Shown here piece by piece: positions 13,965-44,092 of a DNA stretch of 64,000 nucleotides; position 1 is the stretch's first letter, and each line of letters begins with the position of its first letter. The stretch is from Actinomycetota bacterium (lineage in GTDB: Bacteria; Actinomycetota; Thermoleophilia; Solirubrobacterales; Solirubrobacteraceae): positions 62,001 through 126,000 of the forward strand of contig WLOQ01000001.1 in assembly GCA_009699245.1 (NCBI GenBank), read 5' to 3'. A program made the position numbers and the translations under genes. The notes beneath the pieces are model-generated. The model saw nothing but the letters and a program-made list of their open reading frames with translations. It did not search any database and was not told the DNA's origin.

Positions 13965-14932
13965 GGCGCGATGGCCTCAAGCAGCCGCCGCTCGGCCGGA
14001 TCGCGCCCGGAGAGATCGAGATCGCGGCGCAGTTCGATGGTGTTGTACGCCTCGACGTCGCCGACGGGGCCCCGGCCGGCGAGCGCGCCCGCCGCCTCGC
14101 CGAGCGAGTGCACCGCGAGCGTCAGCAGCAGCGCGCCGACGGCGGCGGGCGTGCGGGCGCGGCCGTCCCAGCGAGCGCGCGGCAGCTCGCGCCGCAGGCG
14201 CCGCAGCGCGATCAGCGGCCAGGCGAGCGCGTAGGCCAGCCGCCTGGCGGCGCTCCAGCCCGCGGTGCGCACAGCCCCGTAGCTGCGGCCACCGAGCCAC
14301 GCATGGCGCAGCGCCGAGGCGGGGCGCGAGATGTTCAGGTGGCGCACCTGCGCGTCCGTGGCGACGGCGCAGGTGCCGCAGGCGGCGGCGTGCGCGTGGA
14401 GCAGGCCCTCGTCCGCGAGCAGGGCGTGGAGATCGGCATCGGGGGATGCGAGAACTGCACGCAGGTAGGAGGTGTTGTGGCGCGGAAGGGCGCCGGCGGG
14501 CGCTCGACCGCTGCAGAAGGCGCCGAAGTGCGCGGCGAACATCGCCGCGCTGAAGGCACTCGTCGGGTTGGCGTTGCGCACCCGGGCACCCACGGCGACG
14601 GCCCCTTGGGCGTGGCGATCGATCAGCGTCCGTGCCCACCCCGGGTCGGGGAGGGAGTGCGTCTCCGTCATCAGGATCACCGGCGCCGTCGCGGCGCGCA
14701 CGCAGGCGGCGCGCGCGTCCGCGAGGTCGGCGATCGGATCGGCGTCGAGGAGATGCACGGCGACGAACGGTCCATGTGCCAATCGCGCGAGTTCCTGGTG
14801 CTCGTCGGCGGGCGCCGCGATCACCACCTCGAGCTGCGTGGCGACCGTCTGCGCACGAAGCGCATCGAGGAGCGGGATGGCGCGGCGCGCCTCCGCGGTC
14901 ACGACGACGGCGCTCGCTCTCGCGGCCGTCAT
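13961..14932 (-). CDS. Divergent GT2-like glycosyltransferase, tandem copy B (TETH motif)
   Basis: The protein has 323 residues and shares its layout with the downstream paralogue. It has a GT2-like N-terminus (SAVVVTAEARRAIPLLDAL), the motif VILMTETHSLPDPGWA where a DxD would sit, a LPRHNTSYLR segment, hydrophobic C-terminal stretches (RRLAYALAWPLIAL) and the ending DPAERRLLEAIA. The shared ending and the TETH motif point to a local duplication. It overlaps both neighbours by four bases (ATGA). Function beyond sugar or similar transfer is not evident, and the missing DxD leaves catalysis in doubt. Confidence 0.72.
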   Translation of the reverse strand: MTAARASAVVVTAEARRAIPLLDALRAQTVATQLEVVIAAPADEHQELARLAHGPFVAVHLLDADPIADLADARAACVRAATAPVILMTETHSLPDPGWARTLIDRHAQGAVAVGARVRNANPTSAFSAAMFAAHFGAFCSGRAPAGALPRHNTSYLRAVLASPDADLHALLADEGLLHAHAAACGTCAVATDAQVRHLNISRPASALRHAWLGGRSYGAVRTAGWSAARRLAYALAWPLIALRRLRRELPRARWDGRARTPAAVGALLLTLAVHSLGEAAGALAGRGPVGDVEAYNTIELRRDLDLSGRDPAERRLLEAIAP

Positions 14933-15936
14933 CCCGCCACCTCTGCCTGAAGGATCGCTTCGAGCGCGAGGAACCCATCCGACGCGTCGGGCTGGAACGG
15001 GCGCTCCCCGCGCACGGCGGAGAGGAGGTCACGCCACTCGGCGGCGAACGCGGCGCTCAGGTCGCCACCAGCACGATGTGAGCGCACCATCGCTGGAAGG
15101 CTGCGCATGGAGGCGAGCCCCCGACGCAGGCGCAGCGGCGGGTCCCCCGGGAGCGCGCCCGCGGGCACGAGGTCGAGCCCGTCGAAGCGGTCGAGCCGCA
15201 GCGTGATCGTCCCCGCATCGCCGAGCAGGCGCAGCTCGTGGTTCGCGCCGAGGGCGTCGCCCACCGTGACGCTGACCGCGGTCCCATCGCCCATTCGGGC
15301 GCTGAGCACGGCGCAGTCGTTCCCCGCCACCGCGTGTGCCGAGGTGACCTCGGTCCCGGTGAAGAGTCGCCACAGATCGACGTGGTGGGAAGCGAGGTCG
15401 AGCAGCGCGCCGCCGCGCCGGGGGTCTGCCCGGCCTGCACCCGTCATCGTGCCGATGATCGACCGCAGCCGGCCGAGGGCCCCTGCGCGCACGAGGTCGA
15501 GCGCCTCGGTCACGAGGCGGTGGCGCCGGTACACGAACCCGACGCCGACGACACGGCCCGCCTCGTCTGCCGCCCGCGCGATCGCCCGCGCGTCATCCAT
15601 CGATGCGGCGAGCGGCTTCTCGAGAAAGACGTGGCGGCCCGCTTCCAGCGCGGCGATCGCGATCTGCGCGTGGCTCGCGGGCGGAGTGAGCACGGCGACG
15701 ACATCGACGCGGGGATCGGCGAGCAGCGCCGTATGCGTTGCCTCCCCGCGGGCGGCGGGTGCGAGGGCGAGCGCGGCTGCCAGCGACTGCGCATCCGGGT
15801 CGGCGATCGCCACGACCTCGGCACCGCGCTGGCGCGCGAGCACAGGGAGGTGGTGGCGCAGCGCGACGCTGCCGGCCCCCACCACGCCGATGCCGAGCGT
15901 CCCCGGCGGCGTCCCCTCGCTCCTCATCCGGTCCAT
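14929..15936 (-). CDS. Gfo/Idh/MocA family oxidoreductase
   Basis: The protein has 335 residues. The N-terminal Rossmann motif GIGVVGAGSVALRHHLP binds NAD(P). The EKPLAASMDDARA segment (about residues 102-114) carries the conserved EKP lysine, and LLDLASHHVDLWRLF holds the conserved His of the C-terminal domain. The family oxidises or reduces sugars and sugar nucleotides. It is the first gene of the six-gene glycan operon, so it probably supplies a modified sugar donor. The ATG at 15936 is used; ATG at 15927 is possible. The divergent ABC permease starts 58 bases away. Confidence 0.88.
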   Translation of the reverse strand: MDRMRSEGTPPGTLGIGVVGAGSVALRHHLPVLARQRGAEVVAIADPDAQSLAAALALAPAARGEATHTALLADPRVDVVAVLTPPASHAQIAIAALEAGRHVFLEKPLAASMDDARAIARAADEAGRVVGVGFVYRRHRLVTEALDLVRAGALGRLRSIIGTMTGAGRADPRRGGALLDLASHHVDLWRLFTGTEVTSAHAVAGNDCAVLSARMGDGTAVSVTVGDALGANHELRLLGDAGTITLRLDRFDGLDLVPAGALPGDPPLRLRRGLASMRSLPAMVRSHRAGGDLSAAFAAEWRDLLSAVRGERPFQPDASDGFLALEAILQAEVAG

Positions 15937-15994
15937 CGGTCACGTCACCGTAGCGGCCCGGCGGGGCGCGTCCGTTGTGTCAGGATCCCCGCCC

Positions 15995-16792
15995 GTGAGC
16001 GTCCGCGGACCCCGACCCCACACGCTGCGTCGCTCGCGTGACGTCCTCCTCGCCCTCGCCGGGTCGGACTTCCGCGTCCGTTATGGCCGCGGTCCGCTGC
16101 GCATCGTGAAGTGGCTGCTCGACCCGGTCGCCGCGCTCGGCGTCTACCTGCTGCTCGTGGCGCTCGTCCTCGACCGGCCGGGCCGGGCGCCTGGGCTGAG
16201 CATCGCCTGCGCGGTCGTGCCGTTCCAACTCGTGATGATGACGGCCGTCAACGCCCTGCGCTGCATCGAGAGTCGCCGCACGATCCTGCTGAATCTGGCG
16301 ATCCCGCGGGGGCTGCTGCCGCTCGCCTCCACCGTCACCGAATCGGTCGCATTCGCCGCGGCGCTGACGATGCCGTTCGTGATGATGATCGTCTACGGCG
16401 TGCCGTTGACGCTCTCGGTCCTCTGGCTCGTCCCCGCGATCGCGATCACCGTGATGCTCGCCGCGGCGATCGCCTACCCGGCCGCGCTGCTCGGTCTCTG
16501 GCTGCCGGAGCTCTCGGCCTTCTTCGTCTCCGTCGTGCGCGCCCTCTTCTTCCTCGCGCCCGGTCTCGTCGCATACGACACGATCAGCGGCGAGGGCCAC
16601 AGACTGCTGCCTATCAATCCGCTCACGGGGCTCTTCGAGACCTACCGGGCAGCGCTCTACTACGGGCGCGCGCCCGCCGCGTGGGAGCTGCTCGTCCCGC
16701 TCGGCGCGGCGGCCGCGATCCTCGCGGTGAGCGTGCCCCTCTTCCGCCGCGAGCAGCCGCATCTCGCGAAGATCGTGACGGGCGGGCGATGA
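15995..16792 (+). CDS. ABC-2 type polysaccharide export permease (Wzm-like)
   Basis: The protein has 265 residues and about six membrane segments. The N-terminal LLALAGSDFRVRYGRG stretch is amphipathic and typical of Wzm/TagG permeases, and the later NPLTGLFETYRAALYYGRAP motif is characteristic of the family. It should export a lipid-linked glycan from the cytosol. The start is GTG at 15995; a longer frame upstream is antisense to the oxidoreductase gene. The stop overlaps the ATPase start (ATGA), so permease and ATPase are coupled. Confidence 0.85.
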   Translation: MSVRGPRPHTLRRSRDVLLALAGSDFRVRYGRGPLRIVKWLLDPVAALGVYLLLVALVLDRPGRAPGLSIACAVVPFQLVMMTAVNALRCIESRRTILLNLAIPRGLLPLASTVTESVAFAAALTMPFVMMIVYGVPLTLSVLWLVPAIAITVMLAAAIAYPAALLGLWLPELSAFFVSVVRALFFLAPGLVAYDTISGEGHRLLPINPLTGLFETYRAALYYGRAPAAWELLVPLGAAAAILAVSVPLFRREQPHLAKIVTGGR

Positions 16793-17508
16793 CTCCCCGG
16801 ATCGCGGCGACGGGGCTCGGCGTCCGGTTCGATTTCGATCGTCAGCAGCGGGTCGTCTCGCCGACGCTGCGGCGCCTGAGGCGGCGCGGCACGACGACGT
16901 GGGGCCTGCGTGACGTGGACCTCAACGTGCAGGGCGGCGAGGGCGTCGCGCTGATCGGCCCGAGCGGCTCGGGGAAGACGTCGCTGCTGCGCGCGATCGC
17001 GGGCATCCTCCCGGCGGACGCCGGGACCCTCGCCGTCGACGGTCGCGTCGGGTCGATGCTCGCCGTCGAGGGCGGCCTCTTCGGCGCGCTGACCGGCCGC
17101 GAAAACGCGCGCTCCCTCGGCGTACTGGCGGGCCTGGGCACGGATGCGGCGCGCTCGATCGCCGGGGAGCTGGGCGAGCGGGCGCGGCTCGGGGCGGCGT
17201 TCGACCGCCCGGTCGCGACGTACTCCGAGGGCATGCGCGCGCGGCTGGGATTCGCGATCGCCGAGAGCGCGCGCCCCGAGGTGCTCGTCCTGGACGAGAT
17301 CTTCGAGGCGCTCGACCACGAGTACCGCCGCGTCGTCGAGGAGCACGCCCGGGCGCTCCGCGCCGAGGGCGGGATCGTCGTCGTCGCTGGCCACGACCAC
17401 GAGGCGCTCGGCCGGATCTGCGAGCGCGCCGTGGCGCTGCACGCGGGCCGGATCGTCGCGGACGGCCCCTTCGCGGAGATCGTCGAGGCCTACCGCGGCG
17501 GCGTCTGA
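16789..17508 (+). CDS. ABC transporter ATP-binding protein (Wzt-like, short form)
   Basis: The protein has 239 residues with Walker A GPSGSGKTS, signature YSEGMRARLGFA (the polysaccharide-exporter variant of LSGGQ), Walker B VLVLDEIFEA and switch His in AGHDHEAL. It powers the permease encoded just upstream. It lacks the C-terminal carbohydrate-binding domain of long Wzt proteins, so chain-end recognition by this subunit is not expected. In the Walker B region Asp-Glu is followed by IFEAL rather than the usual polysaccharide-exporter wording. Its 3' end overlaps a convergent gene by 19 bases. Confidence 0.88.
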   Translation: MTPRIAATGLGVRFDFDRQQRVVSPTLRRLRRRGTTTWGLRDVDLNVQGGEGVALIGPSGSGKTSLLRAIAGILPADAGTLAVDGRVGSMLAVEGGLFGALTGRENARSLGVLAGLGTDAARSIAGELGERARLGAAFDRPVATYSEGMRARLGFAIAESARPEVLVLDEIFEALDHEYRRVVEEHARALRAEGGIVVVAGHDHEALGRICERAVALHAGRIVADGPFAEIVEAYRGGV

Positions 17509-18389
17509 CGCGCCGATCGCACCAGGCCGGCGGCGAGACCCGTCGCGCCCGCGAGGTGATGGGCGACGTGCAGCGGCACGGCGAGCGCCGCCTCACGTCG
17601 GCCGCGCACGCGGGCGACGAGGCGGATGAGCGGGACGTCGGTGGCCGCGAAGCCGGCGAGCGCCGCGAGGCTCACGCGCGGGCGCCCGAGGACGAGGCCA
17701 CCCGCCGCAGCGACCGCGAGCGCCGCCTGGAGCCGATGACGCGCGCCGAGATTGAGCGCACCGGCTCCCGAGCGGTGCTCGAGCAGCAGCTCGGTCCAGG
17801 GCAGCGCCCGCTCGAACGCGTCGGAGCGCAGCATGCCGCCGACCGTGAGCTCCTTGAGGTGGGTCCCCTGCGCCCGAGGGTCGAGCAGGATGCGCTCCCC
17901 GCGAGCGCGCAGCCGCAGGCCGAGGTCCACGTCCTCCAGCCAGCGGCGCTGCGGATCGAAGCCGCCCACGCGCTCGAAGGCGCTGCGCCGCACGGCGCCG
18001 AGACCCGACCAGAAGGTCTCCGCCTCGCCGGCCCCGGCGACATGGACCGCGTGGTGCAGGAGGAACCGGAATCCGCTCGCCACGCCGCACCCCGCGGGCC
18101 GGTCGTCGTACGCGCCGAAGACCGCAGCGAGACCCGGGTCGCGGTCGAGTGCGCCGACGAGCAGCGCGAGCGCATCCCGCTGGACGACGACATCGGCGTC
18201 GACGAAGATCAAGAGGTCGCCGGAGGCGCGGACCGCGCCGGCGTTGCGCGCCGCCGCGGGCGTGCGCAGGTCCTGATCGCGCACGACGACGAGCTCGTGC
18301 TCAACGCCCTCGCTGACCGCCAGTGCAGCGAGGCAGCGGTCGAGGCCGGGGGCGGCGTCGGTCGCCGGGACGATGACCGAGATGCTCAT
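17490..18389 (-). CDS. Family 2 glycosyltransferase with membrane C-terminus
   Basis: The protein has 299 residues. ISVIVPATDAAPGLDRCLAA opens the GT2 fold, AARNAGAVRASGDLLIFVDADV carries the DxD-type motif (VDAD near residue 68), and GGFDPQRRWLEDVDLGLRL is the ED-containing acceptor segment. The C-terminal third is hydrophobic and is probably membrane associated. The 3' end overlaps the convergent ABC ATPase gene by 19 bases. It probably adds a sugar to the glycan exported by that ABC system; this is inferred from position. Confidence 0.87.
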   Translation of the reverse strand: MSISVIVPATDAAPGLDRCLAALAVSEGVEHELVVVRDQDLRTPAAARNAGAVRASGDLLIFVDADVVVQRDALALLVGALDRDPGLAAVFGAYDDRPAGCGVASGFRFLLHHAVHVAGAGEAETFWSGLGAVRRSAFERVGGFDPQRRWLEDVDLGLRLRARGERILLDPRAQGTHLKELTVGGMLRSDAFERALPWTELLLEHRSGAGALNLGARHRLQAALAVAAAGGLVLGRPRVSLAALAGFAATDVPLIRLVARVRGRREAALAVPLHVAHHLAGATGLAAGLVRSARQTPPR

Positions 18390-22230: not shown

Positions 22231-22268
22231 AGTCCACATGGCCGCGCCCGTACGGCGCGTCCTCGAAG

Positions 22269-22341
22269 TGGAGCCAGTCGGGATCGAACCGACGACCTCC
22301 TGCTTGCAAAGCAGGCGCTCTCCCAGCTGAGCTATGGCCCC
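22269..22341 (-). tRNA. tRNA-Ala (anticodon TGC)
   Basis: The gene is 73 bases on the minus strand. The acceptor stem starts GGGGCCA and pairs with TGGCTCC, including the G3:U70 wobble that identifies alanine tRNAs. The anticodon stem-loop CCTGC-TTTGCAA-GCAGG gives anticodon TGC, and the T-arm has GGTTCGATCCC. CCA is not encoded. Confidence 0.96.
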
Positions 22342-22361
22342 GCGATGCGGGAGTGTACGGA

Positions 22362-22790
22362 CTAGAAGTCGAAGTCCTTCGGCGGCTTCTGGTCGAACCA
22401 CAGACGCTCGTGCTCCGGCGTCTCCTCAAGGAAGTCCGGGGCCTGCTCGAGCTCGTCCTCGGCGTCGAAGAGCGTGGGCCCATGGCCCGCCGACAGCTCG
22501 ACCGCTTCGGACTCCTCGAGCGAAAACTGCTGCGTCGCCTGCTCGACGTGCGGCTCGGACTCGGGCTCCGCCTCCGGCTCCCGCTCGTCCTGCGGTTCGA
22601 GCGCTTCCGGCTCATGCTCGGCGACCGAATCTTCCACCTCGTGCGCGGACTCCTCAGGAGCCGGCGGCATGGCGGCGGGCCCCGAGGCGCTGAAGGCCTC
22701 TTCCTCGAGGCGCGCAACGACATCGGGGTCGGCACCTGAGCGACGCTTCAGCTCAAGATGCTCGCGGATCGCATCATCCAGGAGACCCAT
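22362..22790 (-). CDS. Small acidic protein of unknown function
   Basis: The protein has 142 residues. It starts with an amphipathic helix (MGLLDDAIREHLELKRR), has a very Glu/Pro-rich centre and ends with LWFDQKPPKDFDF. I have the impression that this head-and-tail pattern recurs in actinobacterial hypothetical proteins, but no function is known to me. The middle is probably disordered. It lies between two tRNA-Ala genes, 20 bases from one. Confidence 0.65.
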   Translation of the reverse strand: MGLLDDAIREHLELKRRSGADPDVVARLEEEAFSASGPAAMPPAPEESAHEVEDSVAEHEPEALEPQDEREPEAEPESEPHVEQATQQFSLEESEAVELSAGHGPTLFDAEDELEQAPDFLEETPEHERLWFDQKPPKDFDF

Positions 22791-22886
22791 CGCCCGACAG
22801 CGTACCCGCCCGGCCCGTGGAGCGGGAGCGCGGGCGGGACGACGACCCGTCAGGGGCGCGGCGGCGGTTACACTCTGCGATCTCGC

Positions 22887-22959
22887 GGGGCTATAGCTCA
22901 GTTGGGAGAGCGCCTGGATCGCACCCAGGAGGTCGGGGGTTCGAGTCCCCCTAGCTCCA
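22887..22959 (+). tRNA. tRNA-Ala (anticodon CGC)
   Basis: The gene is 73 bases. The acceptor stem GGGGCTA pairs with TAGCTCC, including the G3:U70 wobble. The anticodon arm CCTGG-ATCGCAC-CCAGG gives anticodon CGC (codon GCG, expected to be common in this GC-rich genome), and the T-arm has GGTTCGAGTCC. CCA is not encoded. The next gene starts only 13 bases downstream. Confidence 0.95.
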
Positions 22960-22972
22960 TCCCCGAGGACCG

Positions 22973-24493
22973 ATGCCGTCCGATCGTCACCCACGCTCCC
23001 GCCGCCATCCTGCCACGGGGACCGCGGTCGCCATCCTTGATCGCGACAGCTGGGATGGCGACACCGACAACCTCGTCGTGGTCGATCCTGACGCTCGGCT
23101 GGTGCTCTTCATTCCGCGCGACCTGTGGTGCCCGCAGCTCGGCGACCGGGTGAACGCAGCTTGGCGCCTCGGCGGCGCGGCCGGCCTCAAGGCGGCGCTC
23201 GCCGAACACGGCGTCACGATCGACGGTGGCCTCTGTCTGCGGCGCTCGGCGTCCGTGCGGTTCCTCGAGCGGGTGAGCGTGACCGTGCCGGTCGATCGCC
23301 CGCTCGTCTTCCGCTATCCGCTGGCTCCCGAGGAGCGCCTCCGCGACGGCGCGAAGCTCGTGCGCTTTGATCCCCCTCGCGAGCTCCTCGAGGGAGAGCG
23401 CCTGCACCAGTGGCTCGGCGCGCGCTCGCTGCCGGATCGTCACGGCTCGGACCTGTCGCGCATTCCGCGGCAGGTGATCCTCCTGCGCCGACTCGTCGAG
23501 GAGGGGGCGCCCTTTGCGGAGATGCTGGACAACGGCGAGCTTCTGCGCAGCTGGGGCGACGGCGTGATCGACACGCTGCGCGGCGTCGGTCCGGATTGGA
23601 CGTTCGAGATCCTCGGGGGCGTGCACGACGCGCTGATCGACGGGAAGATGGTGCTCGTCCGCGACCCCTCCCCGGCCCCCGTCCGGCTGGCGCGGGCCCC
23701 GCTGCGGCGGCTGCGCTGGGGGCGCGCCCGGGCGATGACCGCGCGGCGCCGCTTGCGGCTCATCGCCGTGCTCGCGGTCCGAGACGAGGCGGCCCACCTT
23801 CCCTCGTGGCTCACCAACGTCGCGGCCCAGGTCGACGCGATCGTCGCCCTCGACGATGGATCGCGCGACGGCTCGGCCGAGATCCTGCGCAGCCACTCGT
23901 CCGTCGCGGAGGTCCTCGCGAATCCCATCGATCGCCCGCGGTGGGATGAGGTCGGCAACCACCATGCCTTGGTGGCATGCGCCCTGCGCCACGGAGCCGA
24001 GTGGATCGTCGCCCTCGATGCCGACGAGCGGCTCGAGCGCCGCTTTCGCGACCGCGTCGAGCGGGCCATCCGGCGCGGCCGCGCGCGCGGGATCGAGGCG
24101 TTCGCGCTGCCGGTCCTCGATCTCTGGGACTCGCCGCACGCGTTCCGCGTCGACGGCCACTGGGGCAGTCGGCGGGTCCCCCGTCTCTTTCGCGCGCGGG
24201 CGGACCACGACTTCGATGAGCGACCGCTGCACGCCGCGAAGGCGCCGCTGCAGGCGCGCCGGCGGGGGGAGTTCCCGAAGGCGGGCGCGCGCATCTACCA
24301 CCTCGGGATGCTCAGCCGCGAGGATCGGACGGCGCGGCGGGCCCGCTATGAAGCGCTCGACCCAGACCGCCACTGGCAGCCCATCGGCTACGCGCACCTC
24401 ACCGACGAGACGGGTCTGCGCCTGCGGCGCGTCCGCGCGCTGCGCGCGTTTGCGCCGCTGCCCGGTGACGGCCCTGCCACGCGCCCGCGCTGA
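22973..24493 (+). CDS. LCP-domain (LytR-CpsA-Psr) protein fused to a family 2 glycosyltransferase
   Basis: The protein has 506 residues in one uninterrupted frame. Residues about 17-230 look like an LCP phosphotransferase: DSWDGDTDNLVVVDPD (25-40), FIPRDLWCP (46-54), RVNAAWRLGGAAGL (59-72), then SDLSRIPRQVILL (159-171), the region that in LCP proteins holds the Arg residues contacting the polyprenyl pyrophosphate. Residues about 262-500 are a GT2 domain with ALDDGSRDGS (292-301) and ALDADERLE (347-355). LCP proteins normally have an N-terminal membrane anchor and act outside the cell; none is visible here. GAGG lies a few bases before the ATG. The 3' end overlaps a convergent glycosyltransferase gene by 95 bases. 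Confidence 0.8.
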   Translation: MPSDRHPRSRRHPATGTAVAILDRDSWDGDTDNLVVVDPDARLVLFIPRDLWCPQLGDRVNAAWRLGGAAGLKAALAEHGVTIDGGLCLRRSASVRFLERVSVTVPVDRPLVFRYPLAPEERLRDGAKLVRFDPPRELLEGERLHQWLGARSLPDRHGSDLSRIPRQVILLRRLVEEGAPFAEMLDNGELLRSWGDGVIDTLRGVGPDWTFEILGGVHDALIDGKMVLVRDPSPAPVRLARAPLRRLRWGRARAMTARRRLRLIAVLAVRDEAAHLPSWLTNVAAQVDAIVALDDGSRDGSAEILRSHSSVAEVLANPIDRPRWDEVGNHHALVACALRHGAEWIVALDADERLERRFRDRVERAIRRGRARGIEAFALPVLDLWDSPHAFRVDGHWGSRRVPRLFRARADHDFDERPLHAAKAPLQARRRGEFPKAGARIYHLGMLSREDRTARRARYEALDPDRHWQPIGYAHLTDETGLRLRRVRALRAFAPLPGDGPATRPR

Positions 24494-25382
24494 AGGCGAG
24501 CTCGAAGACACAGAGCCACGGCAGCGCGACGACGGCCTGTGCGGGTGACGGGGCACTGCGCAGCGCCCAGAGGACATTCGCCGCCCCGCCAGCGCGTGGA
24601 GGCCGGGGCGCGAGTCGCCCGAACTGGCGCCCCGTCTGGAAGAGCTTGCGCACCGTGTCGAACGGCAGGGGCCGGTAGGCGTGGCGCACCGTTCCGGCGG
24701 GGAGATAGTGGATCTCGAAGCCCTGATCGCGCAGACGGACGCTGTGCTCGGAATCCTCCGAGCGCTCGTGGGTCTCGTCCCAGCCGCCGACCGCATCGAG
24801 GACCTCGCGACGAAAGACCGCGGCGCCGGAGGCCTCGAGCGCGCCGGTGCGCAGGCCCAGTTGCGGCGCGGACCAGCGCGGCCCATCGCGGTAGAACCGC
24901 AGCCGACCGCGCAGGCCGACGGGCTCGGGCAGCGCCTCCGCGGCGAGCCGCCTGCCGATGCCGGCGGCGTGGTGGAGGTGGCTCGCACGCGCGCCCCACG
25001 AGTCACCCGCGGGGAGCACGTCGAAGCGCACGACGGCCGCACGCGGGTGCGCCTCGAGGTACCCCAGGGCGACCGCGGCGTAGTGGGGCGCGAGCTCGTA
25101 GTCGTCGGCGACGATCGCGACGAACCGCCCGCGCGCGGCGGCCACGCCGAGGTTGCGCGCGGCGGCGATCCCGCGATGGTCATGCCGCACGTGGCGGATG
25201 CGCGCATCGGCCGCCGCCCGCTCTGCGACGACCGCTTCGGTCTGCGGACCGGACCCGTCATCGGCGGCGACGATCTCGATCGTCGCCGACGTGCCCTGCG
25301 CCGAGAGGGACGCAAGGCAGCGACCGAGGAGCGGGGGACGCTCGTACGTCAGCACCACGATCGACAGATCGGGCCGCTCCAT
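24399..25382 (-). CDS. Family 2 glycosyltransferase
   Basis: The protein has 327 residues. LSIVVLTYERPPLLGRCLASL opens the fold, IVAADDGSGPQTE gives the first acidic pair, and the usual DxD is represented by IVADDYELAPH. The acceptor segment GGWDETHERSEDSEHSV holds an ED pair. It probably extends a surface glycan. Its last 95 bases overlap the convergent LCP-GT2 gene, an unusually long antisense overlap of two conserved proteins, so the exact C-terminus of one of them may be non-essential. Confidence 0.87.
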   Translation of the reverse strand: MERPDLSIVVLTYERPPLLGRCLASLSAQGTSATIEIVAADDGSGPQTEAVVAERAAADARIRHVRHDHRGIAAARNLGVAAARGRFVAIVADDYELAPHYAAVALGYLEAHPRAAVVRFDVLPAGDSWGARASHLHHAAGIGRRLAAEALPEPVGLRGRLRFYRDGPRWSAPQLGLRTGALEASGAAVFRREVLDAVGGWDETHERSEDSEHSVRLRDQGFEIHYLPAGTVRHAYRPLPFDTVRKLFQTGRQFGRLAPRPPRAGGAANVLWALRSAPSPAQAVVALPWLCVFELAFSAGAWQGRHRAAAQTRAARGRAAGADPSRR

Positions 25383-31579: not shown

Positions 31580-32173
31580 TCAGCCGGGCGGCGCGTCGCG
31601 CCAGGCGGGCCCGTCGCGGTGGACGTCCTCGCCGCCGAGCACCATCCGCACCGAGCGTCGCAGCACCTCGAGGTCGAGCTTCCACGAGCGATGCTCGATG
31701 TACCAGAGGTCGAGCTCGATGCGCTCATCCCACGGGAGCGCGGCGCGGCCGTTGACCTGCGCCCAGCCGGTGATTCCGGGGCGCACCGCCAGCCGGCCAC
31801 GCTGGCGCTCGGTGTAGCGCGCGACCTGCTCGGGCACCGTCGGCCGCGGACCGATGATCGCCATCTCGCCGCGCAGGACGTTGACGAGATTCGGCAGCTC
31901 GTCGATCGACGTGCGTCGCAGCAGCCGCCCGACCCGCGTGATGCGCGCATCGCCGGCGACGATCGCCAGGCCCGCGCCCTGATGCTCGGCGCCCGCGACC
32001 ATGGTGCGCAGCTTGAGGACGTCGAACTCGCGGCCGCTGTGCCCGACGCGGCGCTGGCGGTAGAAGGCGCCGCCGCGCGACTCGAGAACGACGGCGAGCG
32101 CGGTGAGCGCGATCACCGGCGCGGCGACGACGAGCGCCGCGAGCGCGACGACGACGTCGACCGCGCGGCGCAT
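31580..32173 (-). CDS. Initiating sugar phosphotransferase (PglC/WbaP catalytic-domain type)
   Basis: The protein has 197 residues, the short monotopic form. An N-terminal membrane helix (VDVVVALAALVVAAPVIALTA) is followed by YRQRRVGHSGREFDVLKLRTM, then RRTSIDELPNLVNVLRGEM (with the catalytic DE pair) and the IGPRPTVPEQVARY and RPGITGWAQVNGR motifs. It transfers a sugar 1-phosphate from a UDP-sugar to undecaprenyl phosphate on the cytosolic face, which starts glycan assembly. The start overlaps the stop of the upstream glycosyltransferase by one base (TGATG). Confidence 0.93.
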   Translation of the reverse strand: MRRAVDVVVALAALVVAAPVIALTALAVVLESRGGAFYRQRRVGHSGREFDVLKLRTMVAGAEHQGAGLAIVAGDARITRVGRLLRRTSIDELPNLVNVLRGEMAIIGPRPTVPEQVARYTERQRGRLAVRPGITGWAQVNGRAALPWDERIELDLWYIEHRSWKLDLEVLRRSVRMVLGGEDVHRDGPAWRDAPPG

Positions 32174-33321
32174 CAGCGCGTGCCCTCGGGCGGCGCCCAC
32201 CCGGCGGGCGTCCCGTGGCGCAGGTGATCCCACAGGCCGGCGACGATCGCCGCGTTCGTCAGCACGTAGTAGCGGGCGACGAGCAGCGGCCTGGGGGCGC
32301 CCTGCGCGCCGCCGGCGACGGCGGCCGCGAGCAGCCCCAGCTGCTTGGCGAGCGCGCGACGGTAGTGGCCGCCCTCGGCGGCCAGCGAGAGGCTCGCGGC
32401 GAGCAGCGTGAGGTGCGCGAGCGGAGCGCCGTAGCGCAGCGCGCGGTGGCCGAGGACCATCGCCGCGTAGGCGGGCGGATAGCCGCGCGGGTCGAGCAGC
32501 CCGCCGCGCAGGACGATCGGCCAGGCGTGGCTCATCATCCGGCGCTTGCGCCGCCACTCACCCTCGACGCTGGGGACCATCCGCTCGGACGCGCGCGCCT
32601 GCGGCTCGTAGACGGCGCGGCGGCCGCCCTTGACGATCGTGAACGGGAACGAGAGGTCGTGGCCCATGACGGGATCGACCTCGACGTAGGCCTCGCGGCG
32701 CACGGCGTAGATCGCACCGTTGCCGCCGGTGACCGACCAGCGACGCGACTCCAGCTCGCGCAGCCACATCTCATAGCGCCAGTAGAGGCCCTCCTGATTC
32801 GTCGCGCCGTCCGCGGCGGTGAACCGCACCTGCCCGCAGACGTACCCGACGTCGTCCTGCGCGAGGCGGGCGACGAGGTCGCGCAGGGCGCCCGGCTCCC
32901 AGGACGAGTTGGCGTCGGAGAAGGCGATGACCGTCGACGACGGACGCGCGGCGCGCACGGCCGCGTCCTGCGCACGGACCTTTCCGCCCCACGGGAGTTC
33001 GAGCACCTGGTCGGCGCCCGCGGCGCGTGCGCGCTCGGGCGTCGCATCCGGCGAGCCATCGCAGGCGACGATCACCTCGAGCCGGTCGGCCGGCCAGTCG
33101 AGCGCGCGGGCGTTCGCGACCTTGTCCGCGATCACGCCCTCCTCGCGGTGCGCCGCGATCACGAGCGTCACGTGCGGCTCGCCGCCCGGGACGACGGGCT
33201 CGGGATCCGGGTCGCGGCGCGGGCGCAGGCGATCGGCCGCGGCGAGCGCCAGCGGATAGCCGATCTGGGCCGCCACGACAACGGCGGCCGATCCCCAGAA
33301 GATGGCCTTGCGCGCGCGCAT
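32173..33321 (-). CDS. Membrane-associated family 2 glycosyltransferase
   Basis: The protein has 382 residues. An N-terminal membrane helix is followed by VTLVIAAHREEGVIADKVANA, VIVACDGSPD and AFSDANSSWEPGAL (DxN instead of DxD). TGGNGAIYAVRREAYVEVDP and DLSFPFTI form the acceptor region, and a hydrophobic C-terminal region follows. The ERM then EWRRKRRMMSHAW part fits processive or membrane GT2 enzymes. The ATG at 33321 was chosen because upstream residues are low-complexity Arg. It is coupled to the initiating phosphotransferase. Confidence 0.85.
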   Translation of the reverse strand: MRARKAIFWGSAAVVVAAQIGYPLALAAADRLRPRRDPDPEPVVPGGEPHVTLVIAAHREEGVIADKVANARALDWPADRLEVIVACDGSPDATPERARAAGADQVLELPWGGKVRAQDAAVRAARPSSTVIAFSDANSSWEPGALRDLVARLAQDDVGYVCGQVRFTAADGATNQEGLYWRYEMWLRELESRRWSVTGGNGAIYAVRREAYVEVDPVMGHDLSFPFTIVKGGRRAVYEPQARASERMVPSVEGEWRRKRRMMSHAWPIVLRGGLLDPRGYPPAYAAMVLGHRALRYGAPLAHLTLLAASLSLAAEGGHYRRALAKQLGLLAAAVAGGAQGAPRPLLVARYYVLTNAAIVAGLWDHLRHGTPAGWAPPEGTR

Positions 33322-33334
33322 CCGGCCGCCGAGT

Positions 33335-34438
33335 CTAGGCAGCGCCGCCGGTGAGCCTGCCGTACAGCTCGAGGTGCGCGCGGGCGATCGGGCCCCAGCC
33401 GTAGCGCTCGCGGGCCGTCTGCGCCGCGGCCTGCGCGAGCGCGGCGCGCGCCGCGGGATCGGCGAGAAGCTCCGCAAGCTCTGCATGGAGCGCCGCCGGA
33501 TCGCCGCCCGGGACGAGCCGCGCGGCGCCGTCGCGCGCGACCTCCGGGAAGCCGCCGACGGCCGAGAGGATCAGCGGGCGTCCGAAGGCCAGCGCGGTGA
33601 AGAGCACGCCGGACTGGTCGATCTCCCGGTACGGGAGCACCACGATGTCCGCGCGCTCGAAGAGCGCCGCGATCTCACGGTCGGGGACGAACCGCTCGAT
33701 GAAGCGCACACCCTCCGGGGCGGCGGCGCGCAGCGGGGCGGTGTCCATGCGCGGCATCCCGACGATCCACAGCTCGGCGTCGTCGATCCCGCGCCAGGCC
33801 TCGAGCAGGACGTCGATCCCCTTGTACGGACGCAGCAGGCCGAAGCAGAGGACGACCGGGCGCTCGACGGCCGCGAGCTCGGGCGGCAGCGGCGCAGCGC
33901 CCGGGACGTCGAGCAGGTGCGTGAACGCGCCGTGCGGGATCACCGTCACCCGCGCCGGGTCGAGGCCGAGATCGTCGGTGAGGCGCGCGCGCCCATGCTC
34001 GGAGTGCACGACCACGTGGTCGACGCGCTCGTAGAGCCGGCGCTGCGCGTCGCGTCGCCGGCGGCCCGCCTCCCGCGGGAGCACGTCGTGCGCGGTGAGG
34101 ACGAGTGGGCGCCCGGTGGGCAACAGATGGACGTCGGCCTGCTGGACCGCGAGCCACTGGAAGTGGATGACGTCCGCCTCACGCGCGGCGCGGCGGTAGG
34201 CGACCATGTCCGGGATGTGCTGAAGCGCGCGCGCCGCCTGGCGCGCGCGCCCGGGGCGCTGCGGGCCGTGACGGTAGAAGCGCTCGTCGACGGTGTAGGT
34301 CCCGTCGCGCGGCACATCCGCGTAGCCGAAGCGGCTCGTCACGAGGGTCGTGTCCGCGCCCGCCGCGGCCAACGCGGCGCACAGCGCGTGGTCGTACGGA
34401 GGCGTGTAGGCCGGGGGGTCGACGACGTGGACGCGCAC
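33335..34438 (-). CDS. Family 4 glycosyltransferase (GT-B)
   Basis: The protein has about 367 residues. The N-terminal VHVVDPPAYTPPYDHALCAAL is a GT-B acceptor-domain start. The C-terminal donor domain has LCFGLLRPYKGIDVLLEAW and the E-x7-E region around REIDQSGVLFTALAFGRP. It would use a nucleotide sugar with retention. GTG at 34438 was chosen because it gives a typical GT4 start and avoids running across the divergent gene at 34461; ATGs at 34480 and 34471 are alternatives. It heads a three-gene unit ending in the initiating phosphotransferase. Confidence 0.87.
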   Translation of the reverse strand: MRVHVVDPPAYTPPYDHALCAALAAAGADTTLVTSRFGYADVPRDGTYTVDERFYRHGPQRPGRARQAARALQHIPDMVAYRRAAREADVIHFQWLAVQQADVHLLPTGRPLVLTAHDVLPREAGRRRRDAQRRLYERVDHVVVHSEHGRARLTDDLGLDPARVTVIPHGAFTHLLDVPGAAPLPPELAAVERPVVLCFGLLRPYKGIDVLLEAWRGIDDAELWIVGMPRMDTAPLRAAAPEGVRFIERFVPDREIAALFERADIVVLPYREIDQSGVLFTALAFGRPLILSAVGGFPEVARDGAARLVPGGDPAALHAELAELLADPAARAALAQAAAQTARERYGWGPIARAHLELYGRLTGGAA

Positions 34439-34460
34439 CGACCAGGGAAGATAGGCGGAC

Positions 34461-35399
34461 GTGCCGGACATCGAGGTCACCTACTGCGTCGTGAACACCC
34501 AGCAGCGCGAGCTCCTCGTGCGGTGTCTGGACACGCTCGCGCGCGAGCGGGCCGAGCTGCCGTTCGCCACCGAGGTGCTGGTGCTCGACAACGCCTCGAC
34601 CGACGGATCGGCCGGTGCGGCGCGGCGCCACGCGACCGTCGACGACCTTGTGACGCGCGACCGGCGCATGAGCAAGCCGGCGAACGACAACGAGCTCCTC
34701 CAGCGCGCCCGCGGCCGCTACGCCCTGCTGCTCAACGAGGACTCCGAGCTGCTCCCCGGCGCGACGCTGGCGCTGCATGGCGCCCTTGAGGCCGACCCGG
34801 ACGCCGGCGCGGCGGGGGCGCGCCTGCTGCGGCCCGACCGCCGTCCGCAGCCGAGCGCGTGGCGCTTCCCCGGACCGGGCAGCGCCCTCGCCGCCGCGCT
34901 CAACCTCCATCGCCGGCTCGTCGTCCAGAGCCGGGGCGAGGAGACGCGGCGCGTGCACTGGGCGCAGAGCGCGGCGCTGCTCGTCCGCGTCGAACACGCC
35001 CGCGAGATCGGCTGGCTCGACACGCAGTTCTTCGTCTACTCCGACGAGGTCGACTTCTGCAAGCGCCTCGCGGACGCGGGCCACCACACGCTCTACGTGC
35101 CCGGCGCACAGGCGATCCACCACGAGCAGCTCTCCACCGGCACGGTCCCGGAGCGGCGCATCGTCGAGCTCTCACGCAATCGCGACCGCTACATGCGCAA
35201 GCACCACAGCGCGCTGAGCGCCGCCATCGTGCGCTGGCTCACCGCGTGGACCTACGCCGTACGGGCGCTCTTCGCGACCGTCGTGCCCGGGCATGACGCC
35301 GCGCGCTACCGCCGCCACGTGCGCGCGACACTGCGCCCGGACGAGGGCGAGGGCCTGCGCGAGGCCGCGGCCGACTTCAACCTCGGTCCGCGGCTCTAG
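34461..35399 (+). CDS. Family 2 glycosyltransferase, rhamnosyltransferase-like
   Basis: The protein has 312 residues. VTYCVVNTQQRELLVRCLDTL and VLVLDNASTDGSAG open the fold, LLLNEDSELLPGATLAL replaces the DxD as in many rhamnosyl- and galactofuranosyltransferases, and FFVYSDEVDFCKRL is the acceptor segment. A C-terminal helix with Trp (IVRWLTAWTYAVRALFA) may bind the membrane. It starts with GTG at 34461, only 22 bases from the proposed start of the divergent GT4, leaving little room for separate promoters. Confidence 0.88.
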   Translation: MPDIEVTYCVVNTQQRELLVRCLDTLARERAELPFATEVLVLDNASTDGSAGAARRHATVDDLVTRDRRMSKPANDNELLQRARGRYALLLNEDSELLPGATLALHGALEADPDAGAAGARLLRPDRRPQPSAWRFPGPGSALAAALNLHRRLVVQSRGEETRRVHWAQSAALLVRVEHAREIGWLDTQFFVYSDEVDFCKRLADAGHHTLYVPGAQAIHHEQLSTGTVPERRIVELSRNRDRYMRKHHSALSAAIVRWLTAWTYAVRALFATVVPGHDAARYRRHVRATLRPDEGEGLREAAADFNLGPRL

Positions 35400-35410
35400 C
35401 CGCGAGCGCG

Positions 35411-35785
35411 TCAGCCGGTGAACCGCGGGATCGCGGGCACGAGGCGAAACCACGACGCCGCCTTGATGCGACACGCCCGACGGCACGCGAGCACGACCCC
35501 GCGGCCGCTGCGCAGATAGGACGGAACGCGAACCCGCGCGCTGATTCGCCCGGCAGCATCCGCGCGGGTCCAGATGACATGCGACGCCTCGCTGCGCGGC
35601 GGGCCGATGAGGAGCTCCACGCCGCGGCCCGCCGGCCAGTGCGCACCGGTGACGAGGAGCACCCCGCCCACGGGAACGTCGCGGGATGTCACGACGACGC
35701 TCGGGCTCGGCGTGGCGGCCGCTGCCGGGAGGGCGAGGGCGCCCGTGAGGGCAACGGCGGCGAGGAGGATCATCAAGCGACGCAT
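35411..35785 (-). CDS. Small secreted protein of unknown function
   Basis: The protein has 124 residues with a signal peptide (MRRLMILLAAVALTGALALP, probable cleavage after AAA). The mature part has a single Ig/Transthyretin-like beta pattern (VPVGGVLLVTGAHWPAGRGVELLIG, given here only as a landmark span near residues 38-62) that resembles domains found in actinobacterial surface proteins, plus a CRRAC pair. It lies 31 bases downstream of the flippase gene on the same strand. I do not recognise a named family. Confidence 0.6.
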   Translation of the reverse strand: MRRLMILLAAVALTGALALPAAAATPSPSVVVTSRDVPVGGVLLVTGAHWPAGRGVELLIGPPRSEASHVIWTRADAAGRISARVRVPSYLRSGRGVVLACRRACRIKAASWFRLVPAIPRFTG

Positions 35786-35816
35786 CGGCGCACCGTATAC
35801 CCGCCTTGCGGGGAAC

Positions 35817-37280
35817 TCAGGCGCTCGCGCTGCGCGCGGCGCGCAGCAGACCGAGCGCACTGCGCAGCTCCGCCCGGCGGATCACGCCGGCGAGCAGCAG
35901 GACGGCCGGGATGAGCGCCGCAACCGCGATCCGGCTCGCGAGACCGCCCACCCCCGAGGTGGGGAGCAGGAGGTTGCCGGCGATCGAGAGCCCGCCGACG
36001 ATGCACGTGAGCAGCACGAGGCGCATCCACTCGAACGGCACATGGAAGGCGCGGCGGGTGAGCGCAAAGAGGGCCCCGAGCATCGCGACGTACGCCCCGC
36101 AGAGCGCGATCGCGGCGCCGCGGATCCCGAGCGGGTCGACGAGCGTGACGAGCAGCAGGACGTTCACGACGAGCCCGACGAGCGCCGCGGGCAGCGCGCG
36201 CACCGTGACCCGCGCGCGCCCCGCGATCGTGACGAGCACGAGGTAGAGCCCGTAGAGCGCCCACCCGAGCGCGAGCCAGGGGAGCGCCTCGTACGCGGGG
36301 TAGAACGACGGCGCCGCGAGGAGCCGCACGAGCCAGCGGCCGAGCAGCTCGAACGCCCCGACCGCGACGCCGGTGACGATGAGGTACGTCGTCGTCACGC
36401 GCGCATAGAGCCGGCCCGCCTCACGATCGTCGGTGATGGAGTAGGCGAGTGGCGGCCACGCGAGCTGAAAGCCGCGCACCAGCAGGATCACGCCGGTCGC
36501 GAGCTTGATCGCCACCGAGTAGAGGCCCGCTGCGGCCGGGCTCTCGGCACGCAGCAGGTAGGCGCGGTCGACGACGTTGAGCAGGAACGCCGCCGCATCC
36601 GCGGGGATCAGCGGCCCGCCGTAGCGCACGAGCGGTCCGAGCGCGAGCCGTTGCACCGGGATCCCTATGTGCTCGCGCAGCGCCAGGGCCCAGAGGCCGA
36701 TGAGCACGGCGGCCGACGCCGCGTAGTTGCCGAGGACGTAGCCGCGCGCTCCCTCGTCGAAGACGACGACGAGCAGGACCGTCAGCGCCACGGTCAGGAG
36801 GACGTTGATGATCGCCGCGCGCATGTACGTGCGGCGACGCTCCTGCACCCGCAGGAGCGTGTAGGCCATCTCGAGGTTCGTGAAGGCCCAGATCCCGAAG
36901 ACCCCGAAGGCCATGAGCGTCGCGTCCCGTGTGCCGAGGATCAGGTCCGAGAGCGGGCCCGCGAGCGCGACGCCCGCCGCGAGCGCGACCGTGCTCGTCA
37001 GGAAGACGAAGCCCGTCGCCGTGCGCGCGAGATGGCGTCGCCGATCGGGGTGGTCGTCGTCGAACCACAGGCGCACGAGCGTCTCGCCCATGCCGAAGCG
37101 CAGCAGGATGCTCGCGAGGATCACGAGCGTGAGCAGCGTCTCGGCATAGCCGAACTGCGCCTCGGTCAGATGCCGCGTGTACAGCGGCAGCGTGAAGAGC
37201 GCGAGGAAGGCGGCCAGCAGCGCCGATGCCTGGTAGGCGAGTCCGGACGCCGCCAGGCGCTTGAGCTGCGAGCCCTCCAT
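35817..37280 (-). CDS. Polysaccharide/lipid-linked oligosaccharide flippase (Wzx-like, MOP superfamily)
   Basis: The protein has 487 residues and about 12-14 membrane segments. The N-terminal LAYQASALLAAFLALFTLP and YTRHLTEAQFGYAE match the polysaccharide-biosynthesis branch of the MOP superfamily, as does the later PADAAAFLLNVVDRAYLL. It should flip an undecaprenyl-pyrophosphate-linked repeat unit to the outer face of the membrane. The ATG at 37280 was chosen; the longer frame to 37331 adds 17 hydrophilic residues. It lies in the centre of the glycan locus beside the glycosyltransferases. Confidence 0.88.
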   Translation of the reverse strand: MEGSQLKRLAASGLAYQASALLAAFLALFTLPLYTRHLTEAQFGYAETLLTLVILASILLRFGMGETLVRLWFDDDHPDRRRHLARTATGFVFLTSTVALAAGVALAGPLSDLILGTRDATLMAFGVFGIWAFTNLEMAYTLLRVQERRRTYMRAAIINVLLTVALTVLLVVVFDEGARGYVLGNYAASAAVLIGLWALALREHIGIPVQRLALGPLVRYGGPLIPADAAAFLLNVVDRAYLLRAESPAAAGLYSVAIKLATGVILLVRGFQLAWPPLAYSITDDREAGRLYARVTTTYLIVTGVAVGAFELLGRWLVRLLAAPSFYPAYEALPWLALGWALYGLYLVLVTIAGRARVTVRALPAALVGLVVNVLLLVTLVDPLGIRGAAIALCGAYVAMLGALFALTRRAFHVPFEWMRLVLLTCIVGGLSIAGNLLLPTSGVGGLASRIAVAALIPAVLLLAGVIRRAELRSALGLLRAARSASA

Positions 37281-37345
37281 CGGCCGCGTCACCGTATCGC
37301 CACAGGTGGCATCCGGGCCGGTGCGCCCCACTAGGGTGGCGCCTG

Positions 37346-38425
37346 ATGGCCCACGCGCTCGACGAGACCCGACCGCCCATCTGTGTGCTGCTCCTGCCGC
37401 GGCAGGTCGAGGACTTCATCCTGCGCGATCAGGCGGAGGACCTCATGCGGGCCCGCAGCGTGATCGCCGTCGGCCCGCCGCGGATCCCGTACGGCGCGAT
37501 GGGACGGCTCCCCGGCTTTCTCGCGCGCCGGCTGGCGTGGCTGCAGTCGCACAACCTCACGCGTGGCCTGCGCCTCCACCGGGGCGAGCCGCGCGTCATC
37601 GTCATCTTCCACCCGCTCCAGTACCCGCTCGCGAAGGCGATGCGCCGGCGCTGCCCGGACGCTGAGCTCTGGTACGGGCGCTGGGACCGCTACGAGCACG
37701 CCTACGACGCCTCCCCGGAGATGCGCCACACGCTCGAGCACCTCCACGAGCATGCGGCGCAGGACAGCGCGCTGACCTTCGTCTGCTCGGAGCGCCTCGC
37801 CGAGCTCGAGCGCGAGGAGGGTCGTGAGGCGGCGCTCGTCCCGCTCGCGGCCGACCGCTTCCCCGCACCGAACCCGGAGGGGACTGTCGTCGCCGTCTCG
37901 CTCGGGCACCTCGGCTGGCGCACCGACTGGGCGCTGCTGCGCGAGGTCGCCGACACCCTCCGCGACCGGCTCGTCCTGCTGCTCATCGGCGAGCGGCACG
38001 ACAGTGAATGCGCGGACGATGAGGACTTCCGCCGCTGCTGCGAGCACCCGTCGCTCGTGTGGCTCGGCGGGCAGCCTGACGCCGTCGCGGCACGGCTGAT
38101 CCTCACCGCCGACGTCGGGATTGTCCCGTTCAAGGTCGAGCCGTTCAACGACGCCGGGCTGCCGTACCGCATCCTCAAGTACGCCCGCCTCGGGCGCCGC
38201 ACCGTGTCCCCCGCCCTCGGCGGCGTGCGCACGTGGGAGCGCGCCGTCACCGTCGCGGATGACGCGCAGACGTTCGCCGCCGCGCTGGTCGAGCAGGCCG
38301 GGCGGCGCGTGCGGCCGGACCTCGAGCTGCGCGAGTGGGCGCTCGCCCAGACGGCCGTGCACCAGAACGCGCCGCTCTGGGATGGGCTCGAGCGCCTCGG
38401 GCTCGCCCTGCCCGGCGAGCGCTAG
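37346..38425 (+). CDS. GT-B fold glycosyltransferase, family 4-like
   Basis: The protein has 359 residues. The C-terminal half has a GT-B donor domain: VVAVSLGHLGWRTDWALL, then LVLLLIGER and VGIVPFKVEPFNDAGLPYR with the acidic and Lys residues typical of GT4-like enzymes that lack long E-x7-E spacing. The N-terminal half is less conserved. It starts 65 bases from the divergent flippase gene. Its stop overlaps the convergent membrane glycosyltransferase stop in CTAG. Confidence 0.8.
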   Translation: MAHALDETRPPICVLLLPRQVEDFILRDQAEDLMRARSVIAVGPPRIPYGAMGRLPGFLARRLAWLQSHNLTRGLRLHRGEPRVIVIFHPLQYPLAKAMRRRCPDAELWYGRWDRYEHAYDASPEMRHTLEHLHEHAAQDSALTFVCSERLAELEREEGREAALVPLAADRFPAPNPEGTVVAVSLGHLGWRTDWALLREVADTLRDRLVLLLIGERHDSECADDEDFRRCCEHPSLVWLGGQPDAVAARLILTADVGIVPFKVEPFNDAGLPYRILKYARLGRRTVSPALGGVRTWERAVTVADDAQTFAAALVEQAGRRVRPDLELREWALAQTAVHQNAPLWDGLERLGLALPGER

Positions 38426-39873
38426 GCCGCCGGGCAGGAGACGTACGCGACCATCGGCCCGACGCGCGCGGCCATGGTGAAGCCCGCGGGCGGGACGTTC
38501 GTGACCTGACGCACACCGGCGGCGCGACCGAACCGCTTCGCGGTCTTCTCGCCGGTGAACACGAGCGCCACGCCGGCCGCGGGCGCCCCCCGATCGGACC
38601 GCGCGACCACCTGCTCGCCGTCCGCATCGAGGAGCCAGCGCGTGTCCGGGACGAGCCGGTAGTTCGGGAGCGACACCGGCCCGCAGCGGCGCCCTGCCGC
38701 CACCTGCGGTGTGCGCAGCAGCGCGCGCAGGTCGTCATGGGTCGAGCGGATGTAGCGCAGCTCAGTGGTGAACCGGTCGATGACCGAGCGGCGCGCCGCG
38801 ACGAACCCGAGCCCGCCGACGACGCAGACGGCGAAGGCGATCGCCCAAGGCCGGCGCAGCCGCTCGGCGGCCGGGAGCGCGGCCCAGCCGACCAGCGCAT
38901 ACCCGGCGAAGAGGGCGAGGGCGATCGCCGGAACGGTGAGGTACCGCGGCAGGATCGACAGGCCGGCAAGGCCGGTGAGGATGAAGGTCAGCGTGCCCGC
39001 CGCGAGCAGGCCGAGCGGGACGTGCAGCGCACGGGCCTCGCGCCGCCAGAGCGCGAGCCCAAGGCCGCCGAGCGCGATCAGGAACACCGGCGGGCGCAGC
39101 GCATCAGAGAGGAAGCGCACGAACGAGCCCGGGACATGGCCGACGCCGCGCTCGCGGCCGAGCTCCTCCGCGAGACCGCTCGTGGCGTGCAGCGACCAGA
39201 ACGGATCACCGGTCGCCCAGAGGTCGGTGAGGCACCACACCACCGGCGCGACGAGCGCGAGGGCGGCAAGGCCGACGTGCCCGCGCCCGACGCCGCGCAG
39301 GCCGCGCTCGCGGACGGCGGGCGCCACGAGCCAGAGCCAGTAGAGCCCGGCGAGCACCCAGGCCTCAGGGCGCAGCAGCCCGGCGACGGTGAGCAGCGCC
39401 ATGACCGGCAGGCCGCGGCGGGGGCGCGCCGCCTCGATCGCCGCCGCCCAGAGCACGAGCGCGAGGAACGGCACGTCGACGTACGCACGTGCGACGTAGA
39501 GGAGCAGCGCGAAGCTCGACCCCACGAGGAGCGCGGCGACGACGGCCGGCCAGGTGCCGAAGACGGTGCGCCCGGTGCGAAAGACGGCCCACAGGAGCCC
39601 GACGAAGGCGAGCACGCCGAGCAGGACGAGCGCACGATCGGCGCTTTCGCCGAACAGCGCGGCGAACAGCGTGCAGATCGCGAGATAGAGCGGGTGCTCG
39701 GTCGGCGCCTGGTAGGCGTCGAACCCCGGCTTGTGGCCGTCGAGGATCTCGCGGCCCCACGCCAGGTGGTATGAGGAGTCGTAGTTCGGGTAGGTGCGCA
39801 CGAGCGCCCAGACGGCGACCGCCAGCCCCGCGAGGGCGAGGACGACGAGCAGCTCGCGGCGCCGCGCGCTCAC
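38422..39873 (-). CDS. GT-C membrane glycosyltransferase (ArnT/mannosyltransferase-like)
   Basis: The protein has 483 residues with about ten membrane segments. The first outer loop has YDSSYHLAWGREILDGHKPGF with the acidic residue expected of GT-C enzymes. The C-terminal 120 residues are soluble and extracellular. It probably transfers a sugar from a polyprenyl-phosphate donor to the surface glycan. The start is GTG at 39873 overlapping the upstream stop, so it is the last gene of an eight-gene operon. Sugar and acceptor are unknown. Confidence 0.8.
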   Translation of the reverse strand: MSARRRELLVVLALAGLAVAVWALVRTYPNYDSSYHLAWGREILDGHKPGFDAYQAPTEHPLYLAICTLFAALFGESADRALVLLGVLAFVGLLWAVFRTGRTVFGTWPAVVAALLVGSSFALLLYVARAYVDVPFLALVLWAAAIEAARPRRGLPVMALLTVAGLLRPEAWVLAGLYWLWLVAPAVRERGLRGVGRGHVGLAALALVAPVVWCLTDLWATGDPFWSLHATSGLAEELGRERGVGHVPGSFVRFLSDALRPPVFLIALGGLGLALWRREARALHVPLGLLAAGTLTFILTGLAGLSILPRYLTVPAIALALFAGYALVGWAALPAAERLRRPWAIAFAVCVVGGLGFVAARRSVIDRFTTELRYIRSTHDDLRALLRTPQVAAGRRCGPVSLPNYRLVPDTRWLLDADGEQVVARSDRGAPAAGVALVFTGEKTAKRFGRAAGVRQVTNVPPAGFTMAARVGPMVAYVSCPAA

Positions 39874-42729: not shown

Positions 42730-42736
42730 GGCGCCG

Positions 42737-44080: not shown

Positions 44081-44092
44081 TCCCGGCGCATG

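Follow-up and report, generated by a model that had tools for sequence, protein, structure and literature searches.

The gene at 22973-24493 of the analysed window, a 64,000-nucleotide stretch of a contig from a Solirubrobacteraceae bacterium (Actinomycetota), encodes an LCP domain without a membrane anchor, fused to a GT2 glycosyltransferase domain. This fusion is not a lone repurposing. It is part of a clade of anchorless LCP proteins that extends over several phyla and is associated with as many as three types of GT2. Comparison of sequences and structure models shows a predicted LCP fold, most of the catalytic residues, no anchor, a GT-A/GT2 domain and a recurrent coupling of LCP and GT2. 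From these features we propose, with a little less than even confidence, that the protein combines, in one chain, an LCP-type phosphotransferase of the cytoplasm (inner face) with its GT2 partner, and that it would act in glycan synthesis.

The fusion occupies a single frame of 506 residues on the forward strand, with no internal stop. From stop to stop the frame spans only 512 aa, so an anchor further upstream is impossible in this frame. The ATG lies 13 nt past the gene for tRNA-Ala(CGC). No transmembrane segment was found in the protein, whose highest 19-residue Kyte-Doolittle mean is 1.14, compared with 1.8-2.8 in three canonical LCPs. The sequence-only reading had described an anchorless fusion of LCP and GT2 in a single frame, and the open frame, the low hydropathy maximum and a second genome with the same fusion bear this out. 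We also considered a missing upstream anchor exon, which is ruled out by the tRNA-Ala gene, the upstream stop and the start positions of the relatives. An in-frame ATG at 23732 (residue 254, in the linker) might allow a free GT2 protein to be translated from within the gene.

The second half of the frame is a GT2 domain, as had been read from the letters. PF13704 (Glyco_tranf_2_4) matches residues 270-354 with 33.5 bits (cut-off 27.5), and the DxD motif is D349-A-D351 (nt 24017-24025). Foldseek places the model of this half beside SunS/ThuS, K4CP and SpsA, which points to a GT-A fold. The GT-A fold and the DxD are common to PF13704 and PF00535 GT2s, to which the window protein adds the N-terminal LCP domain. 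Relatives of this GT2 in Mesorhizobium and Bauldia are missing the segment that follows the first DD motif, and they carry DPD instead of DAD. The model of the full-length fusion has a pTM of 0.52 with a disordered linker, and hence we make no claim on the arrangement of the two domains.

The LCP domain proposed for the first ~230 residues needed the help of relatives. In the window copy alone, PF03816 (LytR_cpsA_psr) matches residues 43-177 below the Pfam cut-off. The E-value is 0.06 when the full protein is searched and 0.01 with residues 1-233 as query, the match spanning positions 18-147 of the 150 in the model; TIGR00350 gives 0.037. A phmmer search of the PDB with the window LCP half yielded chance matches and no LCPs. 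PDB LCPs became detectable once a profile of 14 relatives was used, which found MsrR (1.6e-7), TagV, TagU and TagT (E-values from 1.6e-7 to 1.7e-4). PF03816 is matched by 13 of the 14 clade members (best E 1.2e-7), and the Dongia copy exceeds the cut-off by itself (30.8 vs 24.6 bits). Aligning the clade with 11 canonical LCPs by hhalign gave a probability of 98.9% (E 1.8e-17). Meanwhile, the AlphaFold model of the LCP half has a pLDDT of 91, and all 29 Foldseek matches at E<1e-3 are LCPs with the alpha-beta-alpha fold, at a TM-score of only ~0.6. The best of them are S. aureus LcpA with octaprenyl-PP-GlcNAc and TagT with LI-WTA. A viral structure library gave no match. The LCP half, as judged from profiles and the predicted fold, is thus secure as to family, through its relatives rather than through the window sequence alone.

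A plain protein search of genome contigs with the window protein found no relatives. Whole-genome searches revealed free relatives in G053 (37%) and G228 (48%), and an alignment of three sequences, used as query, detected 22 loci in named genomes. These belong to many Mesorhizobium, Dongia deserti, Bauldia MAGs, an Alphaproteobacteria MAG, a Thermoleophilaceae MAG (the G228 contig) and MAGs labelled Aminicenantes and Dadabacteria, the last two being database labels of MAGs, which may be wrong. In a plasmid collection, the anchorless LCP had weak matches only. Nearly all readable relatives start translation 6-7 residues before strand 1, which makes the missing anchor a trait shared across the clade rather than a peculiarity of one gene. 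In the tree, a long branch with support 1.0 parts the soluble clade from the canonical LCPs. The median dN/dS among Mesorhizobium copies is ~0.18, a sign that selection keeps the protein functional.

Mesorhizobium genomes also contain remnants of the anchorless LCP gene that are truncated or interrupted (L072, L073, G1171, G1214, G1215, G978 and G1204). In the MAG labelled Dadabacteria (L071, 6072-11817), the LCP gene starts where an adenylation-like frame ends, near an acyl-carrier-like frame and a second adenylation-like frame, all assigned by eye; this context is unlike all others. Several members carry basic tails behind the LCP domain (net +4 to +11). An amphipathic, membrane-binding tail was considered and dropped, since the hydrophobic moments are not clearly above those of shuffled tails (p 0.05-0.85).

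The conserved residues of the window LCP domain are D32, R49-D50, N61, G67-G68, R151, D160, R163 and R166-Q167. In our alignment, R49-D50, N61, R151, D160, R163 and R166 are invariant in 14/14 soluble and 10/10 canonical sequences, Q167 is kept in 13 of the 14 soluble LCPs, and D32 is present in all 13 that reach its position. R49 is the arginine of the PRD motif, and D32 matches the aspartate of RSDT. These positions correspond to active-site residues named in the literature for Cps2A (D234/D246, R267, R362, D371, R374, Q378), TagT (R118/R219/R227) and A. oris LcpA (R149/R266) (PMC7831098, PMC6381275).

The pyrophosphate-site arginines are largely, not wholly, kept. R49, R151, R163 and R166 stand, together with D160, Q167 and D32, whereas the first arginine of the canonical [FY]-x-R-x-R motif, present in 10/10 canonical LCPs, is a glycine (G149) in 14/14 clade members, in an alignment that is sensitive to gaps here. 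The second arginine of the pair is retained as R151, which the PDB-profile alignment instead pairs with the first arginine of TagV. Such an invariant glycine suggests that the reaction may differ. The first canonical Mg-binding aspartate is without a clear counterpart in the clade, D23 and D25 being candidates. Moreover, the stretch that carries the helix after the RQ motif in canonical LCPs appears shortened, and the prenyl tunnel may be altered as a result. The glycine and the probably shortened stretch would together leave room for a changed donor.

We next describe how the LCP genes are coupled to GT2s, referring to the type fused in the window as GT2a and to two further types as GT2b and GT2c. 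An independent record (L058) contains a collinear LCP-GT2a fusion with 56% identity to the window protein over its length, and thus the same fusion exists in a second genome. In Dongia, the LCP is fused to GT2b, whose part seems C-terminally short, at one locus, and GT2c-GT2a lies at another. A genome of the genus Mesorhizobium (G1227; L133, 5214-6720, reverse strand) has the reverse order, GT2b-LCP. Immediately ahead of the LCP domain, its GT2b ends in a borderline hydrophobic stretch (Kyte-Doolittle 1.54), which could place the LCP of this fusion outside the cell. In two Bauldia MAGs (L067/L069), the genes form a row, GT2b-GT2c-GT2a-LCP, in which GT2a and LCP overlap by ATGA. The three types of fusion, together with the overlapping gene pair, make a good case that the LCP and the GT2s act together.

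Looser arrangements occur as well. The LCP gene of G228 is convergent with GT2a, followed by GT2b and a Wzm/Wzt-like exporter, and that of G053 is divergent from a GT2a-GT2a-GT2b protein. Mesorhizobium has a solitary LCP gene behind tRNA-Pro and, elsewhere and unlinked, a GT2c-GT2b-GT2a operon. Among 120 genomes of this genus, GT2a is found in 14 of the 15 with an intact LCP vs 17 of the 105 others (Fisher p 5e-9, relatedness ignored); a profile survey detected it in none of five Mesorhizobium genomes with a broken LCP.

Further details of these loci were noticed. The hydrophobic stretch at the L133 junction, of an S-x-P kind, is found again at the C-terminal end of unfused GT2b proteins and is possibly a re-entrant membrane helix. 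The G053 protein (L018, 5131-7548, reverse strand) has 805 aa and three GT2 modules; its two GT2a modules hardly differ over their first ~110 residues, which suggests a recent internal duplication. The GT2c-GT2a pair of Dongia (L113, 4359-8867) lies beside HPr kinase-like, PqqD-like and nucleotidyltransferase-like frames, recognised by eye, a set often met with peptide or polysaccharide modification.

The features of the window are collected in Table 1. An exporter pair with GT2s stands beside the LCP-GT2a pair in L058 and G228 and 5 kb from the fusion in the window, and these three clusters differ from usual Wzm/Wzt clusters in carrying an anchorless LCP. Around the LCP genes of Mesorhizobium and Bauldia, no such exporter was seen. 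The window also has a polysaccharide region (31580-45976) that lies apart from the ABC-exporter genes at 15-18 kb. The genus keeps two opposed tRNA genes, tRNA-Ala(TGC) and tRNA-Ala(CGC), with a small conserved ORF between them (window 22268-22959). The stretch behind tRNA-Ala(CGC) differs among the relatives examined, G014 having a transketolase within about 3.4 kb, and the fusion gene is absent from all 16 other genomes of the genus. Given this variable stretch behind a conserved tRNA pair and the absence in congeners, the fusion looks recently gained.

Table 1. Features of the window around and within the LCP-GT2a fusion gene.
Feature	Position	Strand	Basis or remark
Gfo/Idh-type oxidoreductase	14929..15936	-	homologue (33%) in G228 LCP cluster
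Wzm-like ABC permease, partner of Wzt-like ATPase	15956..16792 (start approximate)	+	homologue (56%) beside G228 LCP gene
Wzt-like ABC ATPase, glycan exporter	16789..17508 (start approximate)	+	homologue (50%) beside G228 LCP gene
GT2 gene	17490..18389	-	weak similarity (30%) to GT2c of Bauldia operon
tRNA-Ala (CGC)	22887..22959	+	ARAGORN; directly 5' of fusion gene, marks its 5' limit
GAGG, probable ribosome-binding site	22965..22968	+	sequence; 4 nt 5' of ATG
Anchorless LCP domain, residues 1-233 (core ~17-230)	22973..23671	+	profile, structure, alignment
Linker, basic, low-confidence, residues 234-259	23672..23749	+	sequence and model
GT2 domain, type GT2a, PF13704, GT-A fold (~residues 260-485)	23750..24493	+	Pfam, Foldseek
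Convergent GT2 gene	24399..25382	-	3' end overlaps last 95 bp of fusion; homologue (44%) by L058 fusion
Bac_transf-type initiating sugar transferase	31580-32557		polysaccharide region
Polysacc_synt flippase-like gene	35817-37280		polysaccharide region
Polysacc_synt_2 dehydratase	44093-45976		polysaccharide region

In the reaction that we propose, the LCP domain would cleave a pyrophosphate-linked donor available inside the cell, either a glycan carried on polyprenyl-PP at the inner leaflet or a sugar or alditol in NDP-activated form. The phosphate-bearing moiety would be transferred to a hydroxyl on an acceptor that the GT2 partner or partners make or extend. A phosphodiester link, branch or cap would thus be formed before export, for which the neighbouring Wzm/Wzt-type ABC exporter may serve in Thermoleophilia. 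For the clade as a whole, we put forward tentatively that a cytoplasmic branch of LCPs, spread horizontally through Actinobacteriota and Alphaproteobacteria, performs phosphoglycosyl or alditol-phosphate transfer within a module of LCP and GT2a/b/c that has been fused repeatedly. Stealth-type hexose-1-phosphate transferases use activated sugars to build glycan phosphodiesters, likewise in the cytoplasm. We draw on them as an analogy of the proposed reaction and claim no homology, the fold here being that of LCP.

The sequence-only reading had suggested that the LCP fold might serve to hold a polyprenyl-linked acceptor for the GT2 domain. As a binding module at the inner leaflet, it would present a polyprenyl-pyrophosphate acceptor for GT2 extension and perform no phosphotransfer. 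Coupling to GT2s by fusion and operon, basic tails that could touch the membrane and the loss of one RxR arginine agree with this idea, which we nevertheless regard as unlikely: pure binding would not require the invariance seen for R49, the putative general base, and for the D..R..RQ site, the LCP and GT2a genes are separate and unlinked in Mesorhizobium, and the amphipathicity of the tails does not clearly exceed that of shuffles. With the catalytic residues retained, a working phosphotransferase or pyrophosphatase is at least as well indicated as mere holding of an acceptor. Canonical LCPs have pyrophosphatase activity in vitro, which requires the arginine equivalent to R49 (A. oris LcpA R149; PMC6381275). 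This arginine is invariant in the clade, and cytosolic water would be an acceptor by default; both points would suit a cytoplasmic pyrophosphatase that hydrolyses polyprenyl-PP- or nucleotide-linked glycans, for release, recycling or quality control, with no transfer. The recurrent one-to-one coupling to GT2s suggests a synthetic step instead, and activated donors would be wasted by hydrolysis; such an enzyme seems to us rather improbable.

A catalytically dead LCP domain with a regulatory or structural role is harder still to credit. The clade is divergent and sits on a long branch, its RxR pair has the arginine-to-glycine change, and disrupted copies occur in several Mesorhizobium genomes; yet most catalytic positions are invariant across phyla, and a dN/dS of 0.18 indicates purifying selection. 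Scarcely any weight remains for an artefact, whether a sequencing or assembly error that fused two genes or an LCP match by chance. The sub-threshold match of the window copy and the occurrence of relatives as separate genes might suggest one, and they are outweighed by the strong profile and fold matches and by the other fusions. The collinear fusion in L058 in practice excludes a sequencing error that joined two genes, and together with those of Dongia and G1227, which are of two more types, it led us to reject an assembly artefact.

By its predicted fold and its motifs, the clade is a member of the LCP superfamily set apart from the wall-ligating enzymes. It shares the LCP fold with TagT/TagU/TagV, S. 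aureus LcpA/MsrR, Cps2A and A. oris LcpA, as well as the PRD arginine, N-A-x(5)-G-G, D-x2-R-x2-R-Q and the RSDT-type aspartate. Unlike these canonical LCPs, it has no N-terminal transmembrane anchor or export signal, a shorter C-terminal part and W-x-G-x-R in place of [FY]-x-R-x-R, and it is fused to or co-encoded with GT2s. As it lacks both the anchor and the full RxR pair, we do not file it among the wall-ligating LCP enzymes. The list of phyla with LCPs, in the portion of a 2021 review that we draw on, does not name Alphaproteobacteria, where the clade occurs (PMC7831098). In the open-access literature searched, which covers few subscription journals, we found no description of an LCP-GT fusion or of a Mesorhizobium LCP, in keeping with the earlier remark that no enzyme of this kind had been described.

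LCP enzymes are described as membrane-anchored, extracytoplasmic and mainly Gram-positive, and as attaching finished glycans to the wall. Related anchorless LCP genes that travel with the same GT2s in unrelated bacteria point to an intracellular glycan-phosphate chemistry of a kind not yet described. If our proposal is right, the LCP reaction would also run on the cytoplasmic side, in a clade that includes Gram-negatives, and a soluble, easily expressed LCP would be at hand for work on mechanism and inhibitors. The fusions predict, in a testable way, which glycosyltransferases act with the anchorless LCP, and the system would open a way to a phosphodiester-containing glycan of Mesorhizobium and Thermoleophilia that is still uncharacterised.
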